Source: Prochilodus magdalenae
Taxonomy: Eukaryota; Chordata; Actinopteri; Characiformes; Prochilodontidae
Length of the DNA stretch: 64,000 bases
Assembly (NCBI GenBank): GCA_024036415.1
Contig: JAMWET010003453.1
Span: forward strand, 101,001-165,000
Direction of reading: 5' to 3'
Shown here piece after piece: positions 16,392-62,702 of this stretch (position 1 is its first letter; every line of letters begins with the position of its first letter). The notes beneath the pieces are model-generated. The model did not search any database and was not told the DNA's origin. It worked only from the letters and a program-made list of their open reading frames with translations. The translations under genes and the position numbers were made by a program.

Positions 16392-16409
16392 CACAAAAAA
16401 CATGGACCA

Positions 16410-36715: not shown

Positions 36716-36837
36716 TGGATGAACTTAAGCTTTTAAGCCAGTCATGTGATGTTAAATAAAGAAATTATTTTCACAGTGTATTAAACATTTGGATTGTCTG
36801 GCTTACAAAATGGGCATACCTATGCCTATGGCATACC

Positions 36838-39582: not shown

Positions 39583-42500
39583 TTAGGCTTGGGTGTTTTC
39601 TGTGGGCTGAGTTTCAGATTTCGTGTCGTAATTGCTGACTTTTTTAATTTTGCCATTAAAATAATAAAAATGTTCGTTAGCATCATTTTCGGCCTTGTCC
39701 GGGATGTACTTTTCAGTGTGCTGAGCTGGTTGAAACTCTGATCGTGACTCTGTTTTGGGATATGTATTTTTTGCATTAGACAAGTGTGTGATCTTCATCT
39801 TCTCACGGCATCTTCTCGTGCCTGCACTGTTGCGATGTACCAACCCAAAGCAATGTCTTTTGGGACTCTGAGTTGTTGCCTCCGTGCTCTTAGTTGTAAG
39901 TTGCAGCGATTGAGTTGTTTCATGTGATGGCAATGTGGTTGTTATCTTTTCTATTGTGGGCACCGTTGTTGTGCTACTGCCCTGTGTTGGCGTTGGTGTG
40001 TGGGGAGTCTCTGTGACCTCTGTACATTCTGTTTCAGGGCTGTCTGTAGTCTGAGATTCCTCCTGTTTCTTGGTTCCTGGGTTGAATGTAACCTCAGGTG
40101 TGGGAATCTCTGTGACCTCTGTACATTCTGTTTCAGGACTGTCTGTAGTCTGAGATTCCTCCTGTTTCTTGGTTCCTTGGTTGAATGTAACCTCAGGTGT
40201 GGGAATCTCTGTGACCTCTGTACATTCTGTTTCAGGGCTGTCTGTTGTCTGAGATTCCTCTTGTTTCTTGGTTCCTTGGTTGAATGTAACCTCCGGTGTG
40301 GGAATCTCTGTGACCTCTGTACATTCGGTTTCAGGGCTGTCTGTAGTCTGAGATTCCTCTTGTTTCTTGGTTCCTTGGTTGAATGTAACCTCAGGTGTGG
40401 GAATCTCTGTGACCTCTGTACATTCGGTTTCAGGGCTGTCTGTAGTCTGAGATTCCTCTTGTTTCTTGGTTCCTTGGTTGAATGTAACCTCAGGTGTGGG
40501 AATCTCTGTGACCTCTGTACATTCGGTTTCAGGGCTGTCTGTAGTCTGAGATTCCTCCTGTTTCTTGGTTCCTGGGTTGAATGTAACCTCAGGTGTGGGA
40601 GTCTCTGTGACCTCTGTACATTCTGTTTCAGGGCTGTCTGTAGTCCGAGATTCCTCCTGTTTCTTGGTTCCTTGGTTGAATGTAACCTCAGGTGTGGGAA
40701 TCTCTGTGACCTCTGTACATTCGGTTTCAGGGCTGTCTGTAGTCTGAGATTCCTCCTGTTTCTTGGTTCCTTGGTTGAATGTAACCTCAGGCACTAGAGT
40801 CTTTTCAAAGCTACTCTGAGAAACATCCAGGTTCTTGGTTGTTCCACTAGATGTGCTTGCAGAAGGATTGGGAGTACCACTGTGTCCACTGATTTTCTTT
40901 AGTTTTTCAAGGCATCTCTTTAAGCCAGCACCGGTCCGATGTACCAAACCAAAACAGGGTCTGATAGCATTCGAGGGTGTTGCTGGGGGCACTGGTTCCT
41001 CTGTATGTTTAGTTATAAGACTATCTGAATTCGTTGGAGACGTTGTTGGATTTTCAGTCACGTCTGTGCATTCGGTTTCCCAAGGTTCTGTAGTTTGTGC
41101 GGATGCAGTTGTTGCACTTTTTGCTGGAGGTTGTGTTGTAGTGGACATGGAGGATGGTGAAGGAACAGTATGCTCGGGTGGTGAAGGTGCTGTTGTGATT
41201 CCTGAATCATCTGTATGTTCTGTTTTCAAACTCCTAGTGGTCTTGTTGGGTTCTTCTTTCTGTTCAGGCACTGGAGTGTCTGTTACCTCTGTACATTCTG
41301 TTTCAAAACTCTCTGTGGCCTCGGATATTGGAGCCAGGTTCTTGGTGGTTCCACTAAACGTGCTTGCTTTATCTTGTGCAGCTTGTGTAGTATGCTTGGA
41401 AAGGGGTTCATTAAAAGAATTAGCCGTAGGAGATAATGATGGTCTGGGAGTGTGGCTGATCCTGATCTGTCTCATCTTTTCAAGGCATCTCTTTAAGCCA
41501 GCACCGGTCCGATGTATCAAACCAAAGCAATGACTTGTTGGACTCAAAGGTTCTGCAGTGGTCTCTGTTATCTCTGTTTCCAAGCTCTCTGTTGTAACTT
41601 CAAGGGATTTTGTGGTTTTATCAGACTGAACCTCAGGCACTGGAGTCTCTGTGACCTCTGTACATTCGGTTTCAAAGCTATCTGTACTCTGAGAAACATC
41701 AAGGTTCTTGGTTGTTCCACTAGATGTGCTTGCAGAAGGATTGGGAGTACCACTGTGTCCACTGATTTTCTTCAGCTTTTCAAGGCATCTCTTCAAGCCA
41801 GCACCGGTCCGATGTATCAAACCAAAACAGGGTCTGACATTATTCAAGGGTGTTACTGTGGGCACTGGTTCCTCTGTTGTCTGTTTCGTTTCGAGACTAT
41901 CTGAATTCGTTTGAGGTATTGGTGGATTTTCAGTCACTTCTGTGCATTCGGTTTCCCAAGGTTCTGTAGTTTGTGAGAATGTAATTGCGGTGCTTGTGCT
42001 TCCTGTTACAGGTTGCGCTGTAGTGGGCATCGGGGGTGGTAAGGAGATAATCATTTTATCATTTGTTGGATTTTCAGTTACTTCAGTGCATTCAGTTTCC
42101 CAAGGTTCTGTAGTTGGTGAGAATGCAGTTGTAGTTCTTGGACTTGCTGTTGTAGGTTGTGTTATAGAAGAAGACACAGGAAATGTTGAAGAAGCTGTAG
42201 GTTGAGGCATTGGGGTTGTAGATTGTGGGGTAGTGGACATAGGGGATGGAGGAAAATGAGTATGTTCCAGTGTTTTTGGTGCTGGAGTTCTTGAACTTTC
42301 TGGTGGTGTTGGCTGTTGTGAAGAGGACATGGGGGATGGTGAAGAAGCAGTACGTTCAGCCATTGGTGTTTCTAAAGTTGTTTTACTTTCTGTTGCAGGT
42401 TGTGTTGTAGTGGACATAAGGGAAGGTGAGGAAACAGTATGTTCCAGTGTTGTTGGTGCTGGCGTTCCTGAACTTTCTGTTGTAGGTTGTGTTATAGTAG

Positions 42501-45500
42501 AGGACATGGGGGATGGTAGAGAAACCATATGTTCCGGTGTTGCTGGTACTGGCATTCCTGAACTCTCTTGTGGTGTAGGCTGTTGTGAAGAGGACATGGT
42601 GGATGGTGAAGAAAGAGTAATTTCAGCCATTGGTGATACTAAAGTTGTTGTACTTTCTGTTGCAGGTTGCGTTGTAGTGGACATAAGGGAAGGTGAGGAA
42701 ACAATATGTTCCAGTGTTGTTGGTGCTGGCGTTCCTGAACTTTCTGGTGTTGGCTGTTGTGAAGAGGACATGGGGGATGGTGAAGAAGCAGTACGTTCAG
42801 CCATTGGTGTTTCTAAAGTTGTTGTACTTTCTGTTGTAGGTTGTGTTATAGTAGAGGACAGGGGGGATGGTGAAGAAACCGTATGTTCCGACGTTGCTGG
42901 TCCTGGCGCTCCTGAACTTTCTGGTGGTGTAGGTTGTTGTGAAGAGGACATGGTGGATGGTGAAGAAACAGTAATTTCAGCGATTGGTGATACCAAAATT
43001 GTTGTACTTTCTGTTGCAGGTTGCGTTGTAGTGGACATAAGGGAAGGTGAGGAAACAATATGTTCCAGTGTTGTTGGTACTGGCGTTCCTGAACTTTCTG
43101 GTGTTGGCTGTTGTGAAGAGGACATGGGGGATGGTGAAGAAACAGTAGTTTCAGCCATTGGTGTTTCTAAAGTTGTTGTACTTTCTGTTGTAGGTTGTGT
43201 TATAGTAGTGGACATAATGGATGGTGAAGAAACCGTATGTTCCGGTGTTGCAGGCACTGGCGTTCCTGAACTTTCTGGTGTTGGCTGTTGTGAAGAGGAC
43301 ATGGGGGATGGTGAAGAAGCAGTAGTTTCAGCCATTGGTGATACTAAAGTTGTTGTACTTTCTGTTATAGGTAGTGTTGTAGTGGACATAAGGGAAGGTG
43401 AGGAAACAGTATGTTCCAGTGTTGTTGGTGCTGGCGTTCCTGAACTTTCTGTTGTAGGTTGTGTTATAGTAGAGGACATAGGGGATGGTGAAGAAACCGT
43501 ATGTTCCGGTGTTGCGGGCACTGGCATTCCTGAACTTTCTGGTGTAGGTTGTTGTGAAGAGGACATGGTGGATGGTGAAGAAGCAGTACGTTCAGCCATT
43601 GGTGTTTCTAAAGTTGTTGTACTTTCTGTTGTAGGTCGTGTCATAGTGGACATAGGGGATGGTGAAGAAAGAGCATGTTCCAGTGTTGTTGGTGCTGGCG
43701 TTCCGGAACTTTCTTTTGTAGGTTGTGTTACAGTAGAGGACATGGGGGATAGTGAAGAAACCGTATGTTCCGGTGTTGCGGGCACTGGCGTTCCTGAACT
43801 CTCTGGTGGTGTAGGCTGTTGTGAAGAAGACATGGTGGATGGTGAAGAAGCAGTAGTTTCAGGCATTGGTGATACTAAAGTTGTTGTACTTTCTGTTGCA
43901 GGTTGTGTTGTAGTGGACATAAGGGAAGGTGAGGAAACAATATGTTCCAGTGTTGTTGGTGCTGGCGTTCCTGAATTTTCTGGTGTTGGCTGTAGCGAAG
44001 AGGACATGGGGGTTGGTGAAGAAACCGTATGTTCCGGTGTCGTTGGCATTGGCGTTCCTGAACTTTCTGGTGTTGGCTCTTGTGAAGAGGACATGGTGGA
44101 TGGTGAAGAAACTGTATGTTCCAGTGTTGTTGGTACTGGCGTTCCTGAACTTTCTGGTGTTGGCTGTTGTGAAGAGGACATGGGGGATGGTGAAGAAGCA
44201 GTAGTTTCAGCCATTGGTGACACTAAAGTTGTTGTACTTTCTGTTGTAGGTAGTGTTGTAGTGGACATAAGGGAAGGTGAGGAAACAGTATGTTCCAGTG
44301 TTGTTGGTGCTGGCGTTCCTGAACTTTCTGGTGTTGGCTGTAGTGAAGAGGACATGGGGGATGGTGAAGAAAAAGTAGATTCAGCCATTGGTGATAATAA
44401 AGTTGTTGTACTTTCTGTTGCAGGTTGCGTTGTAGTGGACATAGGGGATGGTGAAGAAACCGTATGTTCCAGTGTTGTTGGTGCTGGCGTTCCTGAACTT
44501 TCTGTTGTAGGTTGTGTTATAGTAGAGGACATGGGGGATGGTAGAGAAACCATATGTTCCGGTGTTGCTGGTACTGGCATTCCTGAACTCTCTTGTGGTG
44601 TAGGCTGTTGTGAAGAGGACATGGTGGATGGTGAAGAAAGAGTAATTTCAGCCATTGGTGATACTAAAGTTGTTGTACTTTCTGTTGCAGGTTGCGTTGT
44701 AGTGGACATAAGGGAAGGTGAGGAAACAATATGTTCCAGTGTTGTTGGTGCTGGCGTTCCTGAACTTTCTGTTGTAGGTTGTGTTATAGTAGAGGACATG
44801 GGGGATGGTGAAGAAACCGTATGTTCCGGTGTTGCTGGTACTGGCGTTCCTGAACTTTCTGGTGTTGGCTGTTGTGAAGAGGACATGGGGGATGGTGAAG
44901 AAGCAGTACGTTCAGCCATTGGTGTTTCTAAAGTTGTTTTACTTTCTGTTGCAGGTTGTGTTGTAGTGGACATAAGGGAAGGTGAAGAAACCGTATGTTC
45001 CGATGTTGCTGGTACTGGCGCTCCTGAACTTTCTGGTGGTGTAGGTTGTTGTGAAGAGGACATGGTGGATGGTGAAGAAACAGTAATTTCAGCGATTGGT
45101 GATACTAAAGTTGTTGTACTTTCTGTTGCAGGTTGCGTTGTAGTGGACATAAGGGAAGGTGAGGAAACAATATGTTCCAGTGTTGTTGGTACTGGCGTTC
45201 CTGAACTTTCTGGTGTTGGCTGTTGTGAAGAGGACATGGGGGATGGTGAAGAAGCAGTAGTTTCAGCCATTGGTGTTTCTAAAGTTGTTGTACTTTCTGT
45301 TATAGGTAGTGTTGTAGTGGACATAAGGGAAGGTGAGGAAACAGTATGTTCCAGTGTTGTTGGTGCTGGCGTTCCTGAACTTTCTGTTGTAGGTTGTGTT
45401 ATAGTAGAGGACATAGGGGATGGTGAAGAAACCGTATGTTCCGGTGTTGCGGGCACTGGTGTTCCTGAACTTTCTGGTGTTGGCTGTTGTGAAGAGGACA

Positions 45501-48500
45501 TGGGGGATGGTGAAGAAGCAGTACGTTCAGCCATTGGTGTTTCTAAAGTTGTTGTACTTTCTGTTGTAGGTTGTGTTATAGTGGACATAGTGGATGGTGA
45601 TGAAACCGTACGTTCCGGTGTTGCTGGTGCTGGCGTTCCTGAACTTTCTGGTTTAGGTTGTGTTATAGTAGAGGACATGGGGGATGGTGAAGAAACCGTA
45701 TGTTCCGGTGTTGCGGGAACTGGCGTTCCTGAACTTTCTGGTGGTGTAGGCTGTTGTGAAGAGGACATGGTGGATGGTGAAGAAAAAGTAGATTCAGCCA
45801 TTGGTGATACTAAAGTTGTTGTACTTTCTGTTGCAGGTTGTGTTGTAGTGGACATAAGGGAAGGTGAGGAAACAATATGTTCCAGTGTTGTTGGTGCTGG
45901 CGTTCCTGAACTTTCTGGTGTTGGCTGTAGTGAAGAGGACATGGGGGTTGGTGAAGAAACCGTATGTTCCGGTGTCGTTGGTACTGGCGTTCCTGAACTT
46001 TCTGGTGTAGGTTGTGTTATAGTAGAGGACATGGTGGACGGTGAAAAAACTGTATGTTCCAGTGTTGTTGGTGCTGGCGTTCCTGAACTTTCTGGTGTTG
46101 GTTGTAGTGAGGAGGACATGGGGGATGGTGAAGAAACTGTAGTTTCAGCCATTGGTGACACTAAAGTTGTTGTACTTTCTGTTGTAGGTAGTGTTGTAGT
46201 GGACATAAGGGAAGGTGAGGAAACAGTATGTTCCGGTGTTGTTGGTGCTGGCGTTCCTGAACTTTCTGGTGTTGGCTGTTGTGAAGAGGACATGGGGGGT
46301 GGTGAAGAAACAGTACGTTCAGCCATTGGTGATAATAAAGTTGTTGTACTTTCTGTTGCAGGTTGTGTTGTAGTGGACATAGTGGATGGTGAAGAAACTG
46401 TATGTTCCAGTGTTGTTGGTGCTGGCGTTCCTGAACTTTCTGATGGTGTAGACTGTTGTGAAGAGGACATGGTGGATGGTGAAGAAACTGTATGTTCCAG
46501 TGTTGCTGGTACTGGCGTTCCTGAACTTTCTGGTGTTGGCTGTTGTGAAGAGGACATGGGGGATGGTGAAGAAGCAGTAGTTTCAGCCATTGGTGTTTCT
46601 AAAGTTGTTGTACTTTCTGTTATAGGTAGTGTTGTAGTGGACATAGTGGATGGTGAAGAAACTGTATGTTCCAGTGTTGTTGGTGCTGGCGTTTCTGAAC
46701 TTTCTGGTGTAGGTTGTGTTATAGTAGAGGACATGGGGGATGGTGAAGAAACCATATGTTCCGGTGTTGCGGGTACTGGCGTTCCTGAACTTTCTGGTGT
46801 TGGCTGTAGTGAAGAGGACATAGGGGATGGTGAAGGAGCAGTATGTTCAGCCATTGGTGTTTCTAAAGTTGTTGTACTTTCTGTTGCAGGTTGCGTTGTA
46901 GTGGACATAGGGGTTGGTGAAGAAACCGTATGTTCCAGTGTTGCTGGTACTGGCGTTCCTGAACTTTCTGGTGGTGTAGGTTGTTGTGAAGAGGACATGG
47001 TGGATGGTGAAGAAACAGTAATTTCAGCGATTGGTGATACTAAAGTTGTAGTACTTGCTGTTGCAGGTTGTTTTGTAGTGGACATAAGTGAAGGTGAGGA
47101 AACAGTATGTTCCAGTGTTGTTGGTGCTGGCGTTCCTGAACTTTCTGGTGTTGGCTGTAGTGAAGAGGACATGGGTGTTCGTGAAGAAACCGTATGTTCC
47201 GGTGTCGTTGGCATTGGCGTTCCTGAACTTTCTGGTGGTGTAGGCTCTTGTGAAGAGGACATGGTGGATGGTGAAGAAACTGTATGTTCCAGTGTTGCTG
47301 GTACTGGCGTTCCTAAACTTTCTGGTGTTGGCTGTAGTGAAGAGGACATGGGGGATGGTGAAGAAACAGTAGTTTCAGCCATTGGTGATACTAAAGTTGT
47401 TGTACTTTCTGTTGTAGGTTGTGTTATAGTGGACATAGTGGATGGTGAAGAAACAGTATGTTCCAGTGTTGCTGGTACTGGCGTTCCTGAACTTTCTGTT
47501 GTAGGTTGTGTTATAGTAGAGGATATGGGGGATAGTGAAGAAACCGTATGTTCCGGTGTTGCGGGCCCTGGCGATCCTGAACTCTCTGGTGGTGTAAGTT
47601 GTTGTGAAGAGGACATGGTGGATGGTGAAGAAACAGTAATTTCAGCCATTGGTGATACTAAAGTTGTTGTACTTTCTGTTGTAGGTAGTGTTGTAGTGGA
47701 CATAACGGAAGGTGAGGAAACAGTATGTTCCGGTGTTGTTGGTGCTGGCGTTCCTGAACTTTCTGGTGTTGGCTGTTGTGAAGAGGACATGGGGGATGGT
47801 GAAGAAGCAGTAGTTTCAGCCATTGGTGATAATAAAGTTGTTGTACTTTCTGTTGCAGGTTGTGTTGTAGTGGACATAGTGGATGGTGAAGAAACTGTAT
47901 GTTCTAGTGTTGTTGGTGCTGGTGTTCCTGAACTTTCTGGTGTAGGTTGTGTTATAGTAGAGGACATGGGGGATGGTGAAGAAACCGTATGTTCCGGTGT
48001 TGCGGGCACTGGCGTTCCTGAACTTTCTGGTGTTGGCTGTAGTGAAGAGGACATGGGGGATGGTGAAGAAGCAGTATGTTCAGCCATTGGTGTTTCTAAA
48101 GTTGTTGTACTTTCTGTTGCAGGTTGCGTTGTAGTGGACATAGGGGTTGGTGAAGAAACCATATGTTCCAGTGTTGCTGGTACTGGCGTTCCTGAACTTT
48201 CTGGTGGTGTAGGTTGTTGTGAAGAGGACATGGTGGATGGTGAAGAAACTGTATGTTCCAGTGTTGTTGGTACTGGCGTTCCTGAACTTTCTGGTGGTGT
48301 AGGTTGTTGTGAAGAGGACATGGTGGATGGTGAAGAAACAGTAATTTCAGCGATTGGTGATACTAAAGTTGTAGTACTTGCTGTTGCAGGTTGTGTTGTA
48401 GTGGACATAAGTGAAGGTGAGGAAACAATATGTTCCAGTGTTGTTGGTGCTGGCGTTCCTGAACTTTCTGGTGTTGGCTGTAGTGAAGAGGACATGGGTG

Positions 48501-51500: not shown

Positions 51501-54500
51501 TTGTAGGATTTTCAGTCTCTTCAGTGCATTCAGTTTCCCATGGTTCTGTAGTTTGTGAGAATGAACCTGTAGTTCTTGAACTTGCTGTTGGAGATTGTGT
51601 TATAGTAGGGGACATGGGGGGTGGTGAAGGAACCGTATGTTCTAGTGTTGTTTGTTCTGGTATTCTTGAACTTTCTGGTGATGGCTGTGGTAAACTGGAC
51701 ATAGTGGATGGTGAAGAAACAGTATGTTCCAGTGTTGTTGGTGCTGGCGTTCCTGAACTTTCTGTTGTGGGTTGTGTTATAGTAGAGGACATGGGGGAAG
51801 GTGAAGAAACAGTATGTTCCAGTGTTGTTGGTATTGGCGTTCCTGAACTTTCTGGTGTTGGCTGTTGTGAAGAGGACATGGGGGATGGTGAAGAAACAGT
51901 ATTTTCAGCCATTGGTGTTTCTAAAGTTGTTGTACTTTCTGTTGCAGGTTGTGTTGTAGTGGACATAAGGGAAGGTGAGGAAACAATATGTTCCAGAGTT
52001 GTTGGCACTGGCGTTCCTGAACTTTCTGTTGTTGGCTGTAGTGAAGAGGACATGGAGGATGGTGAAGAAACAGTATGTTCTGGTGTTGTTGGTGCTGGCG
52101 TTCTTGAACTTTCGGGTGGTGTAGGCTGTTGTGAAGAAGACATGGTGGATGGTGAAGAAGCAGTAGTTTCAGCCAGTGCTGATACTAAAGTTGTTATACT
52201 TTCTGCTGTAGGTTGTGTTATAGTAGAGAACATGGTGGATGCTGAAGAAAACATATGTTCCAGTGTTGCTGGTGCTGGCGTTTCTGAACTTTCTGGTTTA
52301 GGTTGTGTTATAGTAGAGGACATGGGGGTTGGTGAAGAAACCGTATGTTCCAGTGTTGCAGGCCCTGGCGTTCCTGAACTTTCTGGTGGTGTAGGTTGTT
52401 GTGAAGAGGACATGGTGGATGGTGAAGAAGCAGTAGTTTCAGGCATTGGTGATACTAAAGTTGTTGTACTTTCTGTTGCAGGTTGTGTTGTAGTGGACAT
52501 AAGGGAAGGTGAGGAAACAATATGTTCCAGAGTTGTTGGCACTGGCGTTCCTGAACTTTTTGGTGTTGGCTGTAGTGAAGAGGACATGGGGGTTGGTGAA
52601 TAAACCGTATGTTCTGGTGTTGTTGGTGCTGGTGTTCCTGAACTTTCTGGTGGTGTAGGCTGTTGTGAAGAGGACATAGTGGATGGTGAAGAAGCAGTAG
52701 TTTCAGGTATTGGTGATACTAAAGTTGTTGTACTTTCTGCTGTAGGTTGTGTTATAGTAGAGGACATGGCGGATGGTAAAGAAACAATATGTTCCGGTGT
52801 TGTTGGTGCTGGGGTATTTGAACTTTCTGATGTAGGTTGCACTTTGGTGGATGTGGGGAATGGTAAGGAGGTAATCATATTAGCAGTTGTAGGATTTTCA
52901 GTCTCTTCAGTACATTCGGTTTCCCATGGTTCTGTAGTTTGTGAGAATGAACCTGTAGTTCTTGAACTTGCTGTTGGAGATTGTGTTATAGTAGGGGACA
53001 TGGGGGATGGTGAAGGAACCGTATGTTCTAGTGTTGTTTGTACTGGTATTCTTGAACTTTCTGGTGTTGGCTGTGGTAAACTGGACATAGTGGATGGTGA
53101 AAAAACAGTATGTTCCAGTGTTGTTGGTGCTGGCGTTCCTGAACTTTCTGTTGTGGGTTGTGTTATAGTAGAGGACATGGGGGAAGGTGAGGAAACAGTA
53201 TGTTCCAGTGTTGTTGGTGCTGGTGTTCCTGAACTTTCTGGTGTTGGCTGTAGTGAAGAGGACATGGTGAATGGTGAAGAAGCAGTAGTTTCAGCCATTG
53301 GTGTTTCTAAAGTTGTTGTACTTTCTGTTGCAGGTTGCGTTGTAGTGGACATAGTAAATGGTGAAGAAACTATATGTTCCGGTGTTGCTGGTAGTGGCGT
53401 ACCTGAACTTTCTGTTGTAGGTTGTGTTATAGTAGAGTACATGGGGGATGGTGAAGAAACAGTATGTTCCAGTGTTGTTGGCGCTGGCGTTCCTGAACTA
53501 TCTGGTGTTGGCTGTAGTGAAGAGGACATGGTGGATGGTGAAGAAGCAGTAGTTTCAGCCATTGGTGTTTCTAAAGTTGTTTTACTTTCTGTTGCAGGTT
53601 GTGTTATAGTAGAGGACATGGGGGATGGAGACAAATGAGTATGTTCCAGTGTTGCTGGTACTGGCGTTCCTGAACTTTCTGGTGGTGTAGGTTGTTGTGA
53701 AGAGGACATGGGGGATGGTGAAGAAACAGTAATTTCAGCGATTGGTGATTCTAAAGTTGTTGTACTTTCTGTTGTAGGTCGTGTTATAGTGGACATAGTG
53801 GATGGTGAAGAACCAGTAAGTTCCAGTGTTGCTGGTACTGGCGTTCCTGAACTTTCTGTTGTAGGTTGTGTTGTAGTGGACATAAGGGAAGGTGAGGAAA
53901 CAGTATGTTCCAATGTTGTTGGTGCTGGCGTTCCTGAACTTTCTGGTGTTGGCTGTAGTGAAGAGGACATGGAGGATGGTGAAGAAACCGTATGTTCTGG
54001 TGTCGTTGGTACTGGTGTTCCTGAACTTTCGGGTGGTGTAGGCTGTTGTGAAGAAGACATGGTGGATGGTGAAGAAGCAGTAGTTTCAGGCAGTGCTGAT
54101 ACTAAAGTTGTTGTACTTTCTGTTGCAGGTTGTGTTGTAGTGGACATAGTGGATGGTGAAGAAACTGTATGTTCCAGTGTTGCTGGTCCTGGCGTTCCTG
54201 AACTTTTTGTTGTAGGTTGTGTTATAGTAGAGGACATGGGGGATGGTGAAGAAACCGTATGTTCCGGTGTTGTTGGTGCTGGGGTATTTGAACTTTCTGA
54301 TGTAGGTTGCACTTTGGTGGATGTGGGGAATGGTAAGGAGGTAATCATATTAGCAGTTGTAGGATTTTCAGTCACTTCAGTGCATTCAGTTTCCCATGGT
54401 TCTGTAGTTTGTGAGAATGAACCTGTAGTTCTTGAACTTGCTGTTGGAGGTTGTGTTATAGTAGGGGACATGGGGGATGGTGAAGGAACCGTATGTTCCA

Positions 54501-56850
54501 GTGTTGTTGGTACTGGCGTTCCTGAACTTTCTGTTGTGCGTTGTGGTGTAGTAGAAGACAGAGAGAGACTTGGAGAAACAGTACTTTGAGATGTTGTTGG
54601 TACTAAACTTTTTGGGCTTCCTGTTGTAGGTTGTTGTGAAGAGGACATGGAGGATGGTGTAGAAACAGAAGGTTCAGATATTGTTGATACTAAAGATCTT
54701 GGACTTCCTGTTACAGGTTGTGCTGTAGTGGACATGGGGGATGGCATGGAGGTGATCACTTCAGTATTTAATGGATTTTCAGTCTCTTCGGTGCATTCAG
54801 TTTCCCAAGGTTCTGTTGATTGTGGGAATGCAGTTGTGGTTCTCGCATTTCCTGTTGTAGATGGTTGTAGTGGTGTAGTAGTCATGGTGGATGGTGAAAA
54901 AGTAGTATGTTCTTGTGTTGTTGGCACTGACATTCTTGAACTTTCTGTTGTAGGTTGGATTATAGTAGAGGACATGGGGAATGGTGTAGAAACTAAACGT
55001 TCTGGTGTTGTTGGTACCGGCGTTCTTAAACTTCCTGTTGTAGGTTGTGTTGTAGTAGAAGTCATAGGCAAATTTGAAGAAATGGTAGTTTCATGTGATG
55101 TTGGTACCAAAGTTCTTGGACTTCCTGTTGTAGGTTGTGTTGTAGTGGGTATCGGGGATGGTGTAGCAACAGTTGGTTCAGGCCTTTTTAGTATTGTAGT
55201 TCTCGAACGTTCTGTTGTAGGTTGTTGTGTAGTGGACATGGAGGATGTTGAAGAAACAGTAGGTTCGAGTGTTGTTGGTATTGCAATCGTTGAACTTTCA
55301 GTTGTAGTTTGTGCTGTTGTAGATATGGGGAATTGTGAAGAAACAGTCGGTTCGTGTGTTTGATTTTCGGTTTCTTCAGTGCATTCAGTTTTCTGAGTTT
55401 CTGTAATTTGTAAGATAGCATCCCCGGTTGTCGTTAAAACTGGTTCTTTCATATTCTCAGTGGGCTGCAACGATGGAATGGGTTTAACCGATGGATATTC
55501 AGTTTTTTCGGCATTTACCCTTTCATATTTGGTTGGTAGGGTTTCTTCTGTCTTTTTCGTTACTGCTTGACTTGCAGTAAAACCGGTGGATGGTGAAAGA
55601 TGAATTTCAGGAGCTGTTTGACTTTTTATTATAGGTGGCATTGCAGTAGACATAGGGAACATTGAAGACGAGGTGCTAAGCTCAGACATTGTTGGATTTT
55701 CGGTTTCTTCAGTACATTCAGTTACCCAGGCCTCGGTAGTCTGTGAAATTCCATTAATGTCTGTAGCGGGAAGATGTCCTGTTTTTCTTGCTTCTGTACT
55801 TTCTCTATTATCTGTGTTTTTAGATATTAGATTTTCATGTGTGACTTTTGTGATTTCCTCAGATTTGCCTGGGACTGGTTGACTTGCACTGGAAACTGGA
55901 GAAGGTGCTGATGTTGGATTTTCCGTTTCCTTAGTGCAATCAGTTTCTGAAGTCTCTTGTGAGATTGTATTTCCTGTTGTCATAATAACCTGTCCGGAAT
56001 TATCAATAGAATGTAATGTGCTTTGCACATCAGGTGGGACATTAACTGTGGTCAGAGATTCTGGATGTGGTGTCACGGATATTGGAGTGTCTTTTGGGCT
56101 TATCGTATTTGGTTCTGCCGTTGCAGCTGTCTCTGGGTTCTCGGGGGAAGGTTTCATTGCACGGCGGGACCTGGGTTTGGCAAAACTTCTTTCGTTGATA
56201 GAAATGTGTGCTGGTGCTTGATTCTTTTTGTTTGACATCAAGGTAGATTCTTTAACGTCATCCTGTATCTGCACACTGCGAAGTCCAATTTGGTCTTCTG
56301 GTGTATTTACGGTCGCAGTGGTCTGCCATAATCTTTTCAGAGTTGGATTCTCATCTTTTAGGACAGGTTTGGTAATAATAACTGACATCATCTCAATGGG
56401 GTTAAAAACTTCTGGAATGACAAATCCCATCTTTGATGATTGCAATCTTGGCGAGTGTATTTGATTAGAATCAGTGCCTAAGCGTTCCCATCCTCCCATC
56501 ACATTACTATTCAACAATCCATTTGGCGCTTGACACCTGACCAGGTGAAGAGCTGCTGAGTGTGTCCTCGAGAGTAACTTCCCCAGCTTTTTTGCTGATA
56601 TCCTTTCCCAGTCATATCTCTTGCAGCCATTTTGGACCATGACACCTTTGAAAGTGTCTCCTGTCACGTTTGTGTGTTGATAAGCGATCCAGCGAATGTG
56701 GTCTGGTTTGCGCCGTGCCCCCTTATGGGTGATATGTTTTTTCTTCACAGAGACCTCGCCGCTTACAATGCGCGTGATGGGAGGGGGCGACCTTGAAATG
56801 AGTCCGCGAGGAGCGAAATGCGTCTTTCCCCGCAGGATTCTCCTAATAAC
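39583..56850 (-). CDS. Giant mucin-like protein with degenerate ENDOD1-type nuclease head, exon 2
   Basis: One uninterrupted 17,268-nt coding exon (5,755 residues and stop). It begins at the acceptor TGTTTTCCAACAG (56852-56851) in phase 0, matching exon 1 (59518-59186); joined length is about 5,866 residues. The start completes a DNA/RNA non-specific endonuclease (ENDOD1-like) fold: GKTHFAPRG aligns with DRGHxxPxG of active members, RIVSGEVS with the VVTGxVP strand, and PDHIRWIAY with the PxHIWTAxC segment. The stretch that normally carries the TLTN metal-site motif is missing, so activity is unlikely. The remainder is Ser/Thr/Pro-rich and should be densely O-glycosylated and, given the signal peptide, secreted. 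Order: S/T-rich linker, about 150 repeats of about 28 residues, four C-x13-C cassettes, a 33-residue array and a charged tail ending NTQA. No transmembrane helix or GPI signal is seen. Cysteine-bearing ETECTE cassettes recur. I know of no named gene with this layout. Confidence 0.88.
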   Translation of the reverse strand, partial: VIRRILRGKTHFAPRGLISRSPPPITRIVSGEVSVKKKHITHKGARRKPDHIRWIAYQHTNVTGDTFKGVMVQNGCKRYDWERISAKKLGKLLSRTHSAALHLVRCQAPNGLLNSNVMGGWERLGTDSNQIHSPRLQSSKMGFVIPEVFNPIEMMSVIITKPVLKDENPTLKRLWQTTATVNTPEDQIGLRSVQIQDDVKESTLMSNKKNQAPAHISINERSFAKPRSRRAMKPSPENPETAATAEPNTISPKDTPISVTPHPESLTTVNVPPDVQSTLHSIDNSGQVIMTTGNTISQETSETDCTKETENPTSAPSPVSSASQPVPGKSEEITKVTHENLISKNTDNRESTEARKTGHLPATDINGISQTTEAWVTECTEETENPTMSELSTSSSMFPMSTAMPPIIKSQTAPEIHLSPSTGFTASQAVTKKTEETLPTKYERVNAEKTEYPSVKPIPSLQPTENMKEPVLTTTGDAILQITETQKTECTEETENQTHEPTVSSQFPISTTAQTTTESSTIAIPTTLEPTVSSTSSMSTTQQPTTERSRTTILKRPEPTVATPSPIPTTTQPTTGSPRTLVPTSHETTISSNLPMTSTTTQPTTGSLRTPVPTTPERLVSTPFPMSSTIIQPTTESSRMSVPTTQEHTTFSPSTMTTTPLQPSTTGNARTTTAFPQSTEPWETECTEETENPLNTEVITSMPSPMSTTAQPVTGSPRSLVSTISEPSVSTPSSMSSSQQPTTGSPKSLVPTTSQSTVSPSLSLSSTTPQRTTESSGTPVPTTLEHTVPSPSPMSPTITQPPTASSRTTGSFSQTTEPWETECTEVTENPTTANMITSLPFPTSTKVQPTSESSNTPAPTTPEHTVSSPSPMSSTITQPTTKSSGTPGPATLEHTVSSPSTMSTTTQPATESTTTLVSALPETTASSPSTMSSSQQPTPPESSGTPVPTTPEHTVSSPSSMSSSLQPTPESSGTPAPTTLEHTVSSPSLMSTTTQPTTESSGTPVPATLELTGSSPSTMSTITRPTTESTTTLESPIAEITVSSPSPMSSSQQPTPPESSGTPVPATLEHTHLSPSPMSSTITQPATESKTTLETPMAETTASSPSTMSSSLQPTPDSSGTPAPTTLEHTVSSPSPMYSTITQPTTESSGTPLPATPEHIVSSPFTMSTTTQPATESTTTLETPMAETTASSPFTMSSSLQPTPESSGTPAPTTLEHTVSSPSPMSSTITQPTTESSGTPAPTTLEHTVFSPSTMSSLPQPTPESSRIPVQTTLEHTVPSPSPMSPTITQSPTASSRTTGSFSQTTEPWETECTEETENPTTANMITSLPFPTSTKVQPTSESSNTPAPTTPEHIVSLPSAMSSTITQPTAESTTTLVSPIPETTASSPSTMSSSQQPTPPESSGTPAPTTPEHTVYSPTPMSSSLQPTPKSSGTPVPTTLEHIVSSPSLMSTTTQPATESTTTLVSPMPETTASSPSTMSSSQQPTPPESSGTPGPATLEHTVSSPTPMSSTITQPKPESSETPAPATLEHMFSSASTMFSTITQPTAESITTLVSALAETTASSPSTMSSSQQPTPPESSRTPAPTTPEHTVSSPSSMSSSLQPTTESSGTPVPTTLEHIVSSPSLMSTTTQPATESTTTLETPMAENTVSSPSPMSSSQQPTPESSGTPIPTTLEHTVSSPSPMSSTITQPTTESSGTPAPTTLEHTVSSPSTMSSLPQPSPESSRIPEQTTLEHTVPSPPPMSPTITQSPTASSRTTGSFSQTTEPWETECTEETENPTTANMITSLPFPTSTKVQPTSESSNTPAPTTPEHMVSSPSAMSSTITQPTAESTTTLVSALPETTASSPSTMSSSQQPTPPESSGTPAPTTPEHTVSSPSSMSSSLQPTPESSGTPAPTTLEHTVSSPSLMSTTTLPTTESSGTPVPATLEHTVSSPSTMSTITRPTTESTTTLESPMAEITVSSPSTMSSSQQPTPPESSGTPVPATPEHTHLSPSPMSSTITQPTTESSGTPLPATPEHIVSSPSTMSTTTQPATESTTTLETPMAETTASSPSTMSSSLQPTPESSGTPAPTTLEHTVSSPSPMSSTITQSTTESSGTPAPTTLEHTVFSPSTMSSLPQPSPESSRIPVQTTLEHTVPSPSPMSPTITQSPTASSRTTGSFSQTTEPWETECTEETENPTTANMITSLPFPTSTKVQPTSESSNTPAPTTPEHIVSLPSAMSSTITQPTAESTTTLVSALPETTASSPSTMSSSQQPTPPESSGTPAPTTPEHTVSSPSSMSSSLQPTPESSGTPAPTTLEHIVSSPSLMSTTTQPATESTTTLVSPMAVRTASSPSPMSSSQQPTPESSGTPVPATPEHTVSSPSPMSSTITQPTTESSGTPVPATLERTVSSPSSMSSSLQPTPESSGTPAPTTLEHIVSSSSLMSTITQPTTESTTTLVSPMPETTASSPSPMSSSQQPTPESSGTPVPTTLEHIVSSPSLMSSTITQPTPESSGTPVPTTLEHTVSSPSTMSSSQEPTPPESSGTPMPTTPEHTVSSRTPMSSSLQPTPESSGTPAPTTLEHIVSSPSLMSTTTQPATASTTTLVSPIAEITVSSPSTMSSSQQPTPPESSGTPVPATLEHTVSSPSTMSSSQQSTPSESSGTPAPTTLEHIVSSPSLMSTITQPTTESTTTLVSPMPETTASSPSPMSSSQQPTPESSGTPIPTTLEHIVSSPSLMSSTITQPTPESSGTPAPTTLEHTVSSPSTMSSSQEPTPPESSGTPMPTTPEHTVSSRTPMSSSLQPTPESSGTPAPTTLEHIVSSPSLMSTTTQPATASTTTLVSPIAEITVSSPSTMSSSQQPTPPESSGTPVPTTLEHTVSSPSTMSSSQQPTPPESSGTPVPATLEHMVSSPTPMSTTTQPATESTTTLETPMAEHTASSPSPMSSSLQPTPESSGTPVPATPEHTVSSPSPMSSTITQPTPESSGTPAPTTLEHTVSSPSTMSTTTQPATESTTTLLSPMAETTASSPSPMSSSQQPTPESSGTPAPTTPEHTVSSPSVMSTTTLPTTESTTTLVSPMAEITVSSPSTMSSSQQLTPPESSGSPGPATPEHTVSSLSPISSTITQPTTESSGTPVPATLEHTVSSPSTMSTITQPTTESTTTLVSPMAETTVSSPSPMSSSLQPTPESLGTPVPATLEHTVSSPSTMSSSQEPTPPESSGTPMPTTPEHTVSSRTPMSSSLQPTPESSGTPAPTTLEHTVSSPSLMSTTKQPATASTTTLVSPIAEITVSSPSTMSSSQQPTPPESSGTPVPATLEHTVSSPTPMSTTTQPATESTTTLETPMAEHTAPSPSPMSSSLQPTPESSGTPVPATPEHMVSSPSPMSSTITQPTPESSETPAPTTLEHTVSSPSTMSTTTLPITESTTTLETPMAETTASSPSPMSSSQQPTPESSGTPVPATLEHTVSSPSTMSSSQQSTPSESSGTPAPTTLEHTVSSPSTMSTTTQPATESTTTLLSPMAERTVSSPPPMSSSQQPTPESSGTPAPTTPEHTVSSPSLMSTTTLPTTESTTTLVSPMAETTVSSPSPMSSSLQPTPESSGTPAPTTLEHTVFSPSTMSSTITQPTPESSGTPVPTTPEHTVSSPTPMSSSLQPTPESSGTPAPTTLEHIVSSPSLMSTTTQPATESTTTLVSPMAESTFSSPSTMSSSQQPTPPESSGTPVPATPEHTVSSPSPMSSTITQPKPESSGTPAPATPERTVSSPSTMSTITQPTTESTTTLETPMAERTASSPSPMSSSQQPTPESSGTPVPATPEHTVSSPSPMSSTITQPTTESSGTPAPTTLEHTVSSPSLMSTTTLPITESTTTLETPMAETTASSPSPMSSSQQPTPESSGTPVPTTLEHIVSSPSLMSTTTQPATESTTTLVSPIAEITVSSPSTMSSSQQPTPPESSGAPVPATSEHTVSSPSLMSTTTQPATESKTTLETPMAERTASSPSPMSSSQQPTPESSGTPVPATPEHTVSSPSPMSSTITQPTTESSGTPAPTTLEHIVSSPSLMSTTTQPATESTTTLVSPMAEITLSSPSTMSSSQQPTPQESSGMPVPATPEHMVSLPSPMSSTITQPTTESSGTPAPTTLEHTVSSPSPMSTTTQPATESTTTLLSPMAESTFSSPSPMSSSLQPTPESSGTPAPTTLEHTVSSPSLMSTTTLPTTESTTTLVSPMAETTASSPSPMSSSQQPTPESSGTPVPTTLEHTVSSPSTMSSSQEPTPESSGTPMPTTPEHTVSSPTPMSSSLQPTPENSGTPAPTTLEHIVSSPSLMSTTTQPATESTTTLVSPMPETTASSPSTMSSSQQPTPPESSGTPVPATPEHTVSSLSPMSSTVTQPTKESSGTPAPTTLEHALSSPSPMSTMTRPTTESTTTLETPMAERTASSPSTMSSSQQPTPESSGMPVPATPEHTVSSPSPMSSTITQPTTESSGTPAPTTLEHTVSSPSLMSTTTLPITESTTTLVSPMAETTASSPSPMSSSQQPTPESSGTPVPATPEHTVSSPSIMSTTITQPTTESTTTLETPMAETTVSSPSPMSSSQQPTPESSGTPVPTTLEHIVSSPSLMSTTTQPATESTTILVSPIAEITVSSPSTMSSSQQPTPPESSGAPGPATSEHTVSSPSPLSSTITQPTTESTTTLETPMAERTASSPSPMSSSQQPTPESSGTPAPTTLEHIVSSPSLMSTTTQPATESTTTLVSPMAEITLSSPSTMSSSQQPTPQESSGMPVPATPEHMVSLPSPMSSTITQPTTESSGTPAPTTLEHTVSSPSLMSTTTQPATESKTTLETPMAERTASSPSPMSSSQQPTPPESSRTPAPKTLEHTHFPPSPMSTTPQSTTPMPQPTASSTFPVSSSITQPTTASPRTTTAFSPTTEPWETECTEVTENPTNDKMIISLPPPMPTTAQPVTGSTSTAITFSQTTEPWETECTEVTENPPIPQTNSDSLETKQTTEEPVPTVTPLNNVRPCFGLIHRTGAGLKRCLEKLKKISGHSGTPNPSASTSSGTTKNLDVSQSTDSFETECTEVTETPVPEVQSDKTTKSLEVTTESLETEITETTAEPLSPTSHCFGLIHRTGAGLKRCLEKMRQIRISHTPRPSLSPTANSFNEPLSKHTTQAAQDKASTFSGTTKNLAPISEATESFETECTEVTDTPVPEQKEEPNKTTRSLKTEHTDDSGITTAPSPPEHTVPSPSSMSTTTQPPAKSATTASAQTTEPWETECTDVTENPTTSPTNSDSLITKHTEEPVPPATPSNAIRPCFGLVHRTGAGLKRCLEKLKKISGHSGTPNPSASTSSGTTKNLDVSQSSFEKTLVPEVTFNQGTKKQEESQTTDSPETECTEVTEIPTPEVTFNQGTKKQEESRTTDSPETECTEVTETPTPEVTFNPGTKKQEESQTTDSPETECTEVTEIPTPEVTFNQGTKKQEESQTTDSPETECTEVTEIPTPEVTFNQGTKKQEESQTTDSPETECTEVTEIPTPEVTFNQGTKKQEESQTTDSPETECTEVTEIPTPEVTFNQGTKKQEESQTTDSPETECTEVTEIPTPEVTFNPGTKKQEESQTTDSPETECTEVTETPHTPTPTQGSSTTTVPTIEKITTTLPSHETTQSLQLTTKSTEATTQSPKRHCFGLVHRNSAGTRRCREKMKITHLSNAKNTYPKTESRSEFQPAQHTEKYIPDKAENDANEHFYYFNGKIKKVSNYDTKSETQPTENTQA
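39808..39852 (-). other. C-x13-C cassette 4 (C-terminal)
   Basis: The sequence is CFGLVHRNSAGTRRC, followed by REKMKI, at about residues 5778-5792. It is the most divergent of the four cassettes and closes the mucin region, leaving an 89-residue charged tail. Confidence 0.9.
40002..40797 (-). repeat. 99-bp / 33-residue coding tandem array, 8 copies
   Basis: Units read PEVTFNQGTKKQEE, then SQTTDSPETECTEVTEIPT. The period is exactly 99 bp (for example plus-strand gggaatctc at 40102 and 40201), so the frame is preserved. Copies differ at only a few positions (Q/P in NQGT/NPGT, Q/R in SQTT/SRTT, I/T in EIP/ETP), pointing to recent amplification. Each unit contributes one cysteine. It lies between the third and fourth C-x13-C cassettes. 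Confidence 0.97.
40912..40956 (-). other. C-x13-C cassette 3
   Basis: The sequence is CFGLVHRTGAGLKRC, preceded by IRP and followed by LEKLKKISGHSG, at about residues 5410-5424. Its flanks (LKKISGHSGTPNPSASTSSG) are the same as those of cassette 1, so the two arose by duplication. Confidence 0.95.
41485..41529 (-). other. C-x13-C cassette 2
   Basis: The sequence is CFGLIHRTGAGLKRC, preceded by SH and followed by LEKMRQIRISHTP, at about residues 5219-5233. The cassette core is identical to cassette 1 although the flanking mucin sequence differs, which suggests the core is constrained. Confidence 0.95.
41785..41829 (-). other. C-x13-C cassette 1
   Basis: The sequence is CFGLIHRTGAGLKRC, preceded by VRP and followed by LEKLKKISGHSG, at about residues 5119-5133. 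It can form a 15-residue disulfide loop. It is strongly basic, in contrast to the surrounding uncharged Ser/Thr/Pro sequence. Confidence 0.95.
42250..55400 (-). repeat. Coding mucin repeat region, about 28-residue units
   Basis: About 13 kb (roughly residues 595-4978) of head-to-tail units of 26-30 residues. Three recurring types are ESSGTPxPTTLEHTVSSPS, ATESTTTLVSPMAETTASSPS and MSSSQQPTPPESSGTPVPAT. They alternate in varied order. On top of this is a higher-order repeat: a TTEPWETECTEETENPT-containing block recurs at about 50.24, 51.45, 52.83 and 54.30 kb (spacing 1.2-1.5 kb). Another block, with plus-strand word ggtgttcgtgaag, recurs near 47.17, 48.49 and 49.21 kb. The frame is never broken, which argues for selection on the protein. 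Confidence 0.95.
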
Positions 56851-58514
56851 CTGTTGGAAAACAGGAATATACCTGAGAGTAGAGTCAGGCAGTGTTATAC
56901 TTACGAGATGTTAAGAACGTTGGCAATGAGGATTGGGCAGTGTCTGTTTCTTCATATTCTTATTCATGTTTAAAAAAGGTGACGTGGTGCCTTTTCTCAT
57001 CTAGTCTAGTGTCATTTTAAAAACAAAAAACCCAGTTTGTTTTACATACAGTGCACGGTTTTTAAACCTTGGGTCTAGACTGCTAGCCCAAAATCGATTT
57101 TTGACATATCCAGATTGTATCCAGACTGATTTTTGATAGCCTGAAGGTGGTTTAAAATGAGATTCAAATCTGTGTCTTAGTCTGGACACTCTCTCTGGAC
57201 ACTCAGTATGGACATGTGTAAAAATCTGGTTGGAATCAAATACGTAGCTACTGACGCCTACGTTGTTAGCACAGCAACACATGCAGATAGACTGGTGATG
57301 TCTGGACACTTGAATCTGATCTGATCACTTACCAATAACAGTGTGGACAGATGATTTAAGAAGAGAGAAACAAATCTGAATAGCTGCTAACTTGGAGGGG
57401 AAAACTGGTTAGCATTAGCTTTGCTAACATGTTAACCCACAGGATGTATGATTCTGGCTAAAGCACCAACACAGGTTTAGACAATTACAGACCCCTTTAT
57501 ATAATCTAAAAGAGAGTGAAGCCACTGAAAGGACAGAAAGGTGAAATATTGAAGATGCTCTTTGTGTAAGAAAACTTAGTTATCAAGCCAAATGCAACAC
57601 ACCGCAACACATTTACCTCTTTAGAGGACAATGCAACGCGCTAGTGTCTGGCGTGAAAGCCGAAATCGAATGTTCTGTGGCGTTTACTGATCTATCAGTC
57701 ATCTATCAATGAGCTCCCACACCACCAGTTAGTGAGCCCGCATGATTTTAATGCACCGGCATCATTTGTACATAGGGTGGTATACTGTATTAACATCATC
57801 CTGCCCCAGCTCAGTGACAAGAACAGTGTGGAAACTTTTCCCCTGCTCACAGATCATGATTACACGTTCTCAAAAGGTCAAATTGCATTGCATGAGCATA
57901 TAGCAGTTGGCTACCCCCGTCTACTCCATTTGGTGGCCACCATTTGGACATCCCACCCCGAAAAGGTGGACATTATTAGGGGACCAGGGTGGTCAGGCAA
58001 GATACTAGAACAGAGTTAAAATCATAACCCAACCTGTAACACACAAATGATGCTTTACTCACCTAATTGGGTGGAATGAATGATTTGTTAGTCCTACGGG
58101 AGCTTACTGATTGGCTAGCATTTAGAGGGCTAACCTGTGGCTAGCCAGTAGGTGAGTCATTACGTCACATGACCTATTTTAAGCCAATAAAATGCAAGGC
58201 ATATCTTTTGACACGGTTGTGAGCCAACAGCTCACATAATATTGTTGGCAAGTAAACATTTTAAATACTTCATCCCGAAAAGAGGATTAATAGGACTGGG
58301 AGTTGAAAAAAACAGACTGTCCAGGATTAAACCGGACGTCTGGTGGGCTTCAAATGGTTATAGACTTCTGCAGGTTTGAATTAGTCAGTGTGTACAGCTC
58401 AAATGTATTCATCCCATAAACAATCACTGACCCATATTTCCACATATCCACCCCTGTGCCTTACAGCACACTTGTAGAAATCTGGATGGAGTTCTTCTCC
58501 AGGACGGAGTCCAA

Positions 58515-58599
<85 letters not shown>

Positions 58600-59185
58600 A
58601 TACAGAAGTGTATATATAGTATAAATAATATATAGTTACATTATTGAAGGATATAGCCTACAATAACATGCAATGCAACGACCTGTCCAACTAGTTACAT
58701 TGTGATTGTGACAACCAGACAACCAGCTAGACAAGCAAAATGTGCTGATGTGAGCTACGACCTCATGCAGCAAGTTTTGAATAATGATTTGCATACACAA
58801 AATTGACTGTCAAGTTGCTGACAAGACAATTTACTAAGCCTTATTCAATGTAATTCTACAAGAAATGAATTTCCTTCTTCCCTCTAACCCCACCCACCCC
58901 CAAACCAATCGTTCCAATCTTTTCTACCACTTTCCAGAAAGGAATCTCAATCAGTTTCTTTTACTTTATAGGACTGGGAGGTTACAGATGTTTAAGTGGC
59001 TTGGATGTCATTGTAAGTAATCATGGTTATATTGAATTCAAGCATAATTTGAACTGTCTGTACATTTAGACCTTTGGAATTGGTGCAGTTAGCACACTCT
59101 CATTTCAACAGGAACACAAGTATAGATTTTTTTTTTTTTGCAGCCTGTTATTTTTGTCAAAAAGAAAATTATATACTCTCCTTAC
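56851..59185 (-). other. Intron of the giant mucin-like gene
   Basis: The intron is bounded by AAAAG|GTAAGG (donor, 59185-59184) and CCAACAG (acceptor, 56852-56851). About 57000-57330 has the look of an old dispersed repeat (recurring tctggacact and ccagattt words). A long AT run fills about 58518-58596. An unexplained 95-codon plus-strand open frame (57732-58019) resembles nothing known to me. Confidence 0.7.
58518..58596. repeat. (AT)n microsatellite
   Basis: About 39 uninterrupted AT dinucleotides. Length is likely polymorphic and may be mis-sized in the assembly. Confidence 0.97.
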
Positions 59186-59518
59186 CTTTTGTGGTATGAA
59201 CCATGCACTGGCATTTCTCCTAAGGTCCTGATGGGACAGAATGGTGACCCCTTTGTGATGGATTCCATAAGCCCAAAAAACGGGCACATGCCTGTGTCTG
59301 TGATACACAGCGATATAGATGCACTTGTCTTGTTGGCATCTGCATATGTGGTCCAGGTGATGTTTCCTAAAGACTTGATGAAGCTGGACCGGTCCATTCC
59401 AGAATATTTCTTCACAGGGATTCCCATTGAGTTGGTCTGGTAGCAGAAACTTTCTCCGCTGGCATGTGGGCAAAGCGAATATGGAAAGCAGAGGCAGAAT
59501 AAGCCACCATAGCGTCAT
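59186..59518 (-). CDS. Giant mucin-like protein, exon 1: signal peptide and ENDOD1-like nuclease N-terminal half
   Basis: The exon starts at ATG 59518 (the GTG one codon upstream is in frame but not needed) and encodes 111 residues. MTLWWLILPLLSIFALPTCQ is a clear signal peptide. Next come a cysteine plus aromatic pair (CEEIFWNG), HICRCQQ, then YIAVYHRHRHVPVFWAYGI and finally SAWFIPQK. In ENDOD1-like secreted nucleases of fish the same order is seen: CxxFF, ICQR, FATLYDTxxRIPVYSAYxF and WxIEPQL. The exon ends exactly after the EPQL-equivalent, with donor CAAAAG|GTAAGG, phase 0. Assignment is by motif order; overall identity looks low. A second open frame in the same DNA is a shadow. Confidence 0.78.
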
Positions 59519-60239: not shown

Positions 60240-61865
60240 AAGGCAATAGTTTTAACACATGAACTTTGATATATATACAATGAACACTGATATATATGGA
60301 ATAACCTTTGGTGTATATGGAATGAACTTTGATATATATGGAATGAACTTTGATATATACAATGAACTTTGATATATATGGAATGAACTTTGGTATATAT
60401 ACAATGAACTTTGGTGTATATGGAATGAACTTTGGTGTATATGGAATGAACTTTGGTATATATGGAATGAACTTTGATATATACAATGAACTTTGATATA
60501 TATGGAATGAACTTTGGTATATATACAATGAACTTTGATATATATGGAATGAACTTTGGTATATATGGAATGAACTTTGATATATACAATGAACTTTGAT
60601 ATATATGGAATGAACTTTGGTATATATACAATGAACTTTGATATATATGGAATGAACTTTGGTATATATGGAATGAACTTTGATATATATGGAATGAACT
60701 TTGGTATATATACAATGAACTTTGATATACAGTATATACAATGAACTTTGATATATATGGAATGAACTTTGATATATATGGAATGAACTTTGATATACAT
60801 GGAATGAACTTTGATATATACAATGAACTTTGATATATATGGAATGAACTTTGGTATATATACAATGAACTTTGATATACAGTATATACAATGAACTTTG
60901 ATATATATGGAATGAACTTTGGTATATATGGAATGAACTTTGATATATATGGAATGAACTTTGGTATATATACAATGAACTTTGATATACAGTATATACA
61001 ATGAACTTTGATATATATACAATGAACATTGATATATATGGAATGAACATTGATATATATGGAATGAACTTTGATATATATGGAATGAACTTTGATATAT
61101 ATGGAATGAACTTTGATATATATGGAATGAACTTTGATATATACAATGAACTTTGATATATATGGAATGAACTTTGGTATATATGGAATGAACTTTGATA
61201 TATATGGAATGAACTTTGGTATATATACAATGAACTTTGATATACAGTATATACAATGAACTTTGATATACAATGCAAACTTGAGATATACAGAATATGA
61301 ACTTTGATATATATGGAATGAACTTTGATATATACAATGAACTTTGATATATATGGAATGAACTTTGATATACATGGAATGAACTTTGATATATATACAA
61401 TGAACTTTGATATATATGGAATGAACTTTGATATACATGGAATGAACTTTGATATATATACAATGAACTTTGATATATATGGAATGAACTTTGATATACA
61501 TGGAATGAACTTTGATATATATGGAATGAACTTTGATATATACAATGAACTTTGATATATATGGAATGAACTTTGGTATATATGGAATGAACTTTGATAT
61601 ATATGGAATGAACTTTGGTATATATACAATGAACTTTGATATACAGTATATACAATGAACTTTGGTATATATACAATGAACTTTGATATACAGTATATAC
61701 AATGAACTTTGATATATATACAATGAACATTGATATATATGGAATGAACTTTGGTATATATACAATGAACATTGATTAATATGGAATAAACATTGATATA
61801 TATGGAATGAACTTTGATATATATGAAATGAACTTCGATATATATATACAATGAACTTTGATTCA
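60240..61865. repeat. AT-rich satellite, 19-21-bp units, about 1.6 kb
   Basis: About 80 units of the type ggaatgaactttgatatata and acaatgaactttgatatata alternate, with variants ggtatata, gatatacat and gatatacagtat. Most units are 21 bp, so all three minus-strand frames remain open for over 500 codons, giving YISKFIPYISKFI-like strings. These are artefacts of the period and not genes. The array ends near 61865. Confidence 0.95.
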
Positions 61866-62700: not shown

Positions 62701-62702
62701 CA

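Follow-up and report, generated by a model that had tools for sequence, protein, structure and literature searches.

Orphan mucins have been described to arise by "mucinization", in which a secreted non-mucin gene gains in-frame Ser/Thr/Pro tandem repeats; the account that we follow (PMC12776774, which on this point cites Pajic et al. 2022) describes proline-rich proteins as the mammalian precursors, in the part of the paper considered here. The same part covers the fish antifreeze glycoproteins, which come from trypsinogen, consist of Thr-Ala-Ala units and arose where a motif that can be glycosylated expanded in tandem beside a former enzyme gene. Human ENDOD1, a relative on the enzyme side, carries three C-terminal membrane segments, according to the section of PMC9126970 used here. 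The gel-forming mucins (MUC2, MUC5AC, MUC5B and MUC6) combine a very large Ser/Thr/Pro region with cysteines at both ends and with von Willebrand D domains.

The gene analysed here lies on the minus strand of a stretch of 64,000 nucleotides of Prochilodus magdalenae (the window). It has two exons (59518-59186 and 56850-39583), and its spliced product of 5,866 residues, about 610 kDa without sugar, has no internal stop. From N to C terminus, this giant protein presents a hydrophobic leader, a small cysteine-bearing head, about 4,500 Ser/Thr/Pro-rich residues and a conserved tail. With ENDOD1 and the fish ENDOD1-like proteins (PF01223) it shares the hydrophobic leader, the leading Cys pair, a phase-0 intron after the first part of the domain, the strand order ...IC...[FY]-x-A-x-[LV]-Y...P-[VLF]-[FY]-x-A-Y, the IVTG and P-x-x-W-x-A strands and the last helix; it differs from ENDOD1 in that the RGH/TLTN catalytic block, a Pfam match and the C-terminal membrane segment are absent, and in its giant tail. 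It resembles the gel-forming mucins in the size of the Ser/Thr/Pro region and the cysteines at both ends, but no von Willebrand D domain was found in the pieces scanned. Like the orphan mucins of PMC12776774 it carries Ser/Thr/Pro tandem repeats in frame, and these vary from one relative to another, although the mammalian precursors described in that part of the paper are proline-rich proteins, whereas here we find a former nuclease and cysteine modules behind the array. The likeness to antifreeze glycoproteins is in the mode of expansion; these have no nuclease head, whereas the head of the giant protein is nuclease-derived (compared with the same part of PMC12776774). Mucinization of secreted genes is thus known from that source, while no description of a nuclease scaffold whose conserved tail carries cysteines was found as far as we searched; searching by title and abstract, with subscription journals mostly outside reach, gave no fusion of an ENDOD1-type nuclease with a mucin. 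The reading that we favour, and consider probable, is that the giant would be a secreted, non-catalytic, mucin-like coat protein, formed by mucinization on a nuclease scaffold. It would be the larger of two genes in this genome that belong to a small fish family of non-catalytic, mucin-like proteins; the other is found on contig C461 (the C461 paralogue), and a related protein is annotated in Metynnis hypsauchen. The features of the gene are as follows.

59186..59518, minus strand: exon 1, 111 codons; hydrophobic leader and first part of the ENDOD1-like head
56851..59185, minus strand: intron, GT...AG, phase 0, at the same site as the intron of ENDOD1-like genes
39583..56850, minus strand: exon 2, 5,755 codons and stop
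56512..56850, minus strand: second part of the head, residues 112-224, without the catalytic [RK]GH...TLTN block
56161..56172, minus strand: RSRR, furin-type site at the boundary between linker and Ser/Thr/Pro region; its place is not conserved
41932..55494, minus strand: Ser/Thr/Pro-rich region, residues 564-5084
42124..54483, minus strand: core tandem array of 29/30-residue units, residues 901-5020

The first-pass annotation of this DNA had proposed a single phase-0 intron joining 59186 to 56850, an open exon of about 17.3 kb and a product of 5.9 kilo-residues, and the gene model agrees with all three. In the list of open reading frames, a single minus-strand frame of 5,775 codons covers 39583-56910. 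The donor of exon 1, whose product ends in AWFIPQK, reads AAAAG/GTAAGG; the acceptor is TTTTCCAACAG, and exon 2 begins right behind it at 56850 in phase 0. Besides these splice signals and the site, the intron is backed by an annotated Metynnis protein, in which the same two head parts are joined. No strong splice donor (pattern AGGT[AG]AG) was found within exon 2. The first AATAAA or ATTAAA is located 613 bases downstream of the stop, no polyadenylation-type signal was found within 900 bases after the stop of the C461 paralogue, and the 382 bases upstream of the giant gene contain no TATA box. In the giant protein, no 17-residue window past residue 40 exceeds 1.5 on the Kyte-Doolittle scale, so that no membrane segment was detected there; in the C461 paralogue the leader falls outside the four most hydrophobic windows. 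The tail of the C461 paralogue also has a furin-type RSRR, which is lacking in the Metynnis protein. Upstream of the giant gene, 21-base minisatellites occupy window positions 60259-61862 and 62699-62854, with one unit in opposite orientations. Elsewhere in the window, two minus-strand stretches (24921-25292 and 7361-7693) match PF00001, the rhodopsin-like receptors, the second just under the cut-off, and may be two exons, one early and one later, of a single gene; a minus-strand frame at 16345-17034 carries a THAP domain (E 1.2e-19) and is possibly transposon-derived; and 82-base tandem repeats lie at 35884-36732, where several minus-strand frames are open.

Judged by sequence, the head is an ENDOD1-like domain that has diverged and lacks the central catalytic block. 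An ENDOD1-like motif order had been read in exon 1, and the profile comparison bears this out: aligned with the ENDOD1-like profile by hhalign, the exon 1 part scored 36.7, and none of 100 column shuffles exceeded 20.5. A shortened second half of the domain had been read in exon 2; here a profile of two heads gave 18.6 against a shuffle maximum of 19.0, which is not significant, and the addition of the Metynnis head raised the score against 15 ENDOD1-like second exons to 30.7 (0 of 200 shuffles, maximum 23.4). The alignment covers the strand IVTG, the strand P-x-x-W-x-A and the final helix. Exon by exon, the remaining head parts match the ENDOD1-like profile in the same order. When both exons were aligned jointly, the exon 2 part was carried, with little confidence, into the region of the ENDOD1 catalytic block, and its C-terminal placement therefore rests on the separate alignment; under either placement the catalytic motif is absent. 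The [RK]GH and TLTN block is missing from the three heads (window, C461 paralogue and Metynnis), which have in common C35, C59, C61 and C66 of exon 1.

The ENDOD1-like genes of the same genome provide the reference for this comparison. A PF01223 search of the genome gave at least 32 matches elsewhere, and the window gene was not among them; the matches are partly clustered (contigs C1708, C1431, C5555 and C1954) and represent a large ENDOD1-like gene set. Fifteen stretches around these matches were read, yielding seven first exons by motif search and 16 second-exon frames, which were picked by motif or by TLTN and more than 150 codons and so are no blind sample; [RK]GH is kept in 13 of these 16 frames and missing from three. 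All seven first exons end EPQ/GT in phase 0; of the 16 second-exon frames 13 were checked, and all of these start behind AG in the same phase. The phase-0 intron of the giant gene is thus at the same position as in the ENDOD1-like genes of its genome. More distant searches gave less: Pfam found no nuclease family (PF01223) in the window head or the Metynnis protein, and a PDB sequence search with the two-head profile returned no match at E up to 10; a profile of six ENDOD1-like proteins retrieved EndoG, EXOG and related nucleases. Secondary structure predicted for the Metynnis head (three strands, three helices, four strands, helix) is, at low confidence, in keeping with a nuclease-type fold. 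A model of the Metynnis protein with four exon pieces (P0002) had a mean pLDDT of 37.9, rising to 78 in a ten-residue block of the exon 2 part, and the window exon 2 head reached 52.7; Foldseek with the Metynnis and window exon 2 head models, both of low confidence, gave no match at E <= 0.001.

In the genome (1.18 Gb, 7,790 contigs) one other clear head was found, that of contig C461, together with two weaker places (E 0.6 and 6.8). The C461 paralogue has 1,182 residues, an intron with the same site and phase as in the giant gene, and a head 38-39% identical to that of the window. Its repeats are of the TTEVHSETTVEPT type and show no DNA similarity to those of the window; its tail carries the ring and the NEHFYYF module described below. 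C461 also carries an inverted second copy, which repeats the first for 17 kb or more with 92-94% identity and numerous short gaps; we did not count it as a gene because it looks like a fold-back assembly artefact. The inverted arms (L014-L017, C461:70001-105590) surround about 88 kb and could be a fold-back read in the assembly or a decayed inverted duplicate. A protein search with the paralogue head gave one match among 1,585 candidates, the 770-residue protein MHYP_G00218050 of the characiform M. hypsauchen, which is 67% identical to the C461 paralogue head over the searched region (81% for exon 1 of the C461 gene); across 211 aligned columns it shares 44% identity with the window head. Searches with the window head gave no match among 619 candidates of about 265-840 residues or among 753 of about 1,000-3,170 residues; these negatives are weak, because the first of the two missed the 770-residue Metynnis protein with its 44% identity. 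None of the three protein searches, with lengths up to about 3,170 residues, returned a relative of giant size. The Metynnis protein contains no mucin-grade stretch at the threshold used, and a mucin role is therefore not common to the whole family.

These relatives modify an earlier statement, namely that a duplicated nuclease gene had lost its active site and gained a giant tail. The ancestry, the loss and the tail stand, but the loss is not private to this gene, since it is common to the C461 paralogue and the Metynnis protein. Because both have the same head and tail, the active site would by parsimony have been lost before the giant array formed. The arrays themselves appear, again by parsimony, to have arisen separately, because the repeats of the paralogue are unrelated and Metynnis has no mucin-grade stretch; the arrays would be younger than the tail modules and the loss in the head, and the giant one seems to have expanded locally at a later time. 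The orthology of the Metynnis protein and the order of events are based on identity and parsimony.

The giant Ser/Thr/Pro tail had also been recognized at first reading, and its composition is uniform. Mucin-grade sequence corresponds to thresholds of 40% Ser+Thr and 5% Pro. Between residues 501 and 5000, Ser+Thr stays at 38-49% and Pro at 13-18% in all 250-residue blocks, and the Ser+Thr fraction over the whole 5,866-residue protein is 0.41. The core array has 121 anchors and thus 120 intervals, 109 of which measure 29 (69) or 30 residues (40). The protein therefore contains a long Ser/Thr/Pro-rich tandem-repeat region of the kind that defines a PTS mucin domain, as given in the part of PMC1552070 used here.

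It had been argued that a frame free of stops over such a length implies a maintained protein. This argument is not sufficient: the opposite strand also carries a long frame (2,869 codons in the list of open reading frames), the best antisense frame across the core has just 5 stops in 12,360 bases, and because one antisense frame is nearly open too, openness by itself is weak proof of coding. A minisatellite open by chance, or a decaying gene, could moreover appeal to the absence of residue constraint between repeat copies (pN/pS 0.995) and to the count by distinct variants, under which the lack of stops says little (P about 0.08 and 0.09 in two unit classes). We nevertheless regard such an origin as hardly credible, since the ungapped self-alignments of exon 2 (150-base windows, identity of at least 80%, 351,000 aligned bases) are in phase in 1,273 of 1,273 cases, the head is constrained against the C461 paralogue (dN/dS about 0.33, with a dS of 1.5 that is near saturation), and the tail behind the array is conserved with the protein of another fish, Metynnis (E 5e-16, in that one comparison alone). 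The conservation of the tail in the C461 paralogue and in the Metynnis protein was reached in 0 of 2000 shuffles each. In addition, the sense frame has no stops, though 1,372 single changes could create one; about 46 would be expected were every mismatch to the unit consensus independent. Phase keeping, the stop-free frame, head constraint and tail conservation favour coding, and a chance open frame was dropped given the first and the last two of these. Strict phase combined with relaxed residues agrees with selection on the composition and length of a polymer.

The conserved tail behind the array did not figure in the first-pass annotation. Its modules are the following.

41785..41829, minus strand: C-x13-C ring, copy 1, CFGLIHRTGAGLKRC
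41485..41529, minus strand: C-x13-C ring, copy 2
40912..40956, minus strand: C-x13-C ring, copy 3
39998..40791, minus strand: eight 33-residue units with one TECT motif apiece
39808..39852, minus strand: C-x13-C ring, copy 4, CFGLVHRNSAGTRRC
39658..39678, minus strand: NEHFYYF module, conserved tail

The ring follows the pattern C-[FY]-G-L-[IV]-H-R-x7-C, then x-E-K, and occurs four times in the giant protein and once each in the C461 paralogue and the Metynnis protein. TECT is counted 20 times in the giant and once in each of the two relatives, and NEHFYYF-[ND]-G-K recurs in the tails of all three. Natriuretic peptides have a C-x15-C ring. A kinship with them was considered and rejected, as the present ring is C-x13-C and gave no Pfam match at E up to 10. 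The four near-identical cationic rings, against one in each relative, and their constant spacing could also suggest a precursor that releases small disulfide-ring peptides (CFGL[IV]HR...RC), with the Ser/Thr/Pro sequence as spacer. This appears very unlikely: a basic pair (KR) precedes the last copy only, no Pfam peptide family is matched, the PDB matches have E of just 0.8 and 1.3 and concern a capsid protein, and three of the copies are crowded within 300 residues close to the end of a protein of 5.9 kilo-residues. A Pfam scan of the window head, exon 2 of the paralogue, three pieces of the giant's tail and the Metynnis protein matched neither VWD nor SEA. One tail piece matched four families below the cut-off (best E 0.01), the paralogue repeats matched a hexapeptide-repeat family above its cut-off, and the Metynnis linker matched FancD2 below the cut-off; we take these weak matches as composition effects.

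The same gene, with the same ancestry, could also serve outside mucus, its product being a large glycoprotein of an egg coat, of an adhesive secretion or of a matrix, whether extracellular or mineralising. The tail is rich in charged residues (20-29% in the blocks beyond residue 5000), and mucin grade is not reached by the Metynnis protein; the size and the Ser/Thr/Pro content, however, match mucins, and we consider a product of this other kind rather unlikely. The sequences show that a homologue of the ENDOD1-like nucleases has kept its leader exon, its intron and both flanks of the domain and has lost the catalytic middle, and that Ser/Thr/Pro repeats have grown in frame between head and tail, with unrelated units in the two paralogues. 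Under the mucin-like coat protein that we favour, the product would be secreted and its repeats densely O-glycosylated, so as to form outside the cell an extended and hydrated coat, or a mucus polymer, with ends that bind or cross-link: the Cys-rich head and the tail cysteines (TECT and ring) may provide anchoring or disulfide cross-linking, and in the repeats composition and length would count, not the exact residues. A bolder version, to which we give a small chance, is that a nuclease fold without catalysis still holds nucleic acid or glycans and anchors a mucin by which extracellular DNA or microbes are bound into fish mucus, the rings and TECT motifs acting as cross-links.

Other tails occur in the ENDOD1-like family of this genome. 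On the reverse strand of C379:96001-106000 (L025), at 5851-7224 of that strand, an ENDOD1-like second exon retains RGH and TLTN. Its nuclease domain seems intact, and PPNPHTPTT repeats (42% Pro, 35% Thr), about 190 residues in all, come directly behind it; the pattern used did not detect a first exon for this gene. A repeat tail is thus not unique to the giant gene among the ENDOD1-like genes here, and L025 is possibly a picture of the first step toward a mucin-tailed nuclease gene. Three further ENDOD1-like second exons (L026, L027 and L028, on C1622, C2962 and C1947) carry long Cys-rich repeats (Y-x-W-C, W-x-Y-C) behind the nuclease domain, which is another type of tail.

The favoured reading would extend the described route of mucinization from proline-rich proteins to a dead nuclease. 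If the head does hold nucleic acid or glycans, there may be a general route in which a two-ended enzyme gene hosts interchangeable repeat arrays. The family also offers a clean comparison, with two paralogues that have the same ends and unrelated repeats and a fish relative with hardly any repeats, and therefore it can be asked what a mucin needs at its ends and what in its middle.
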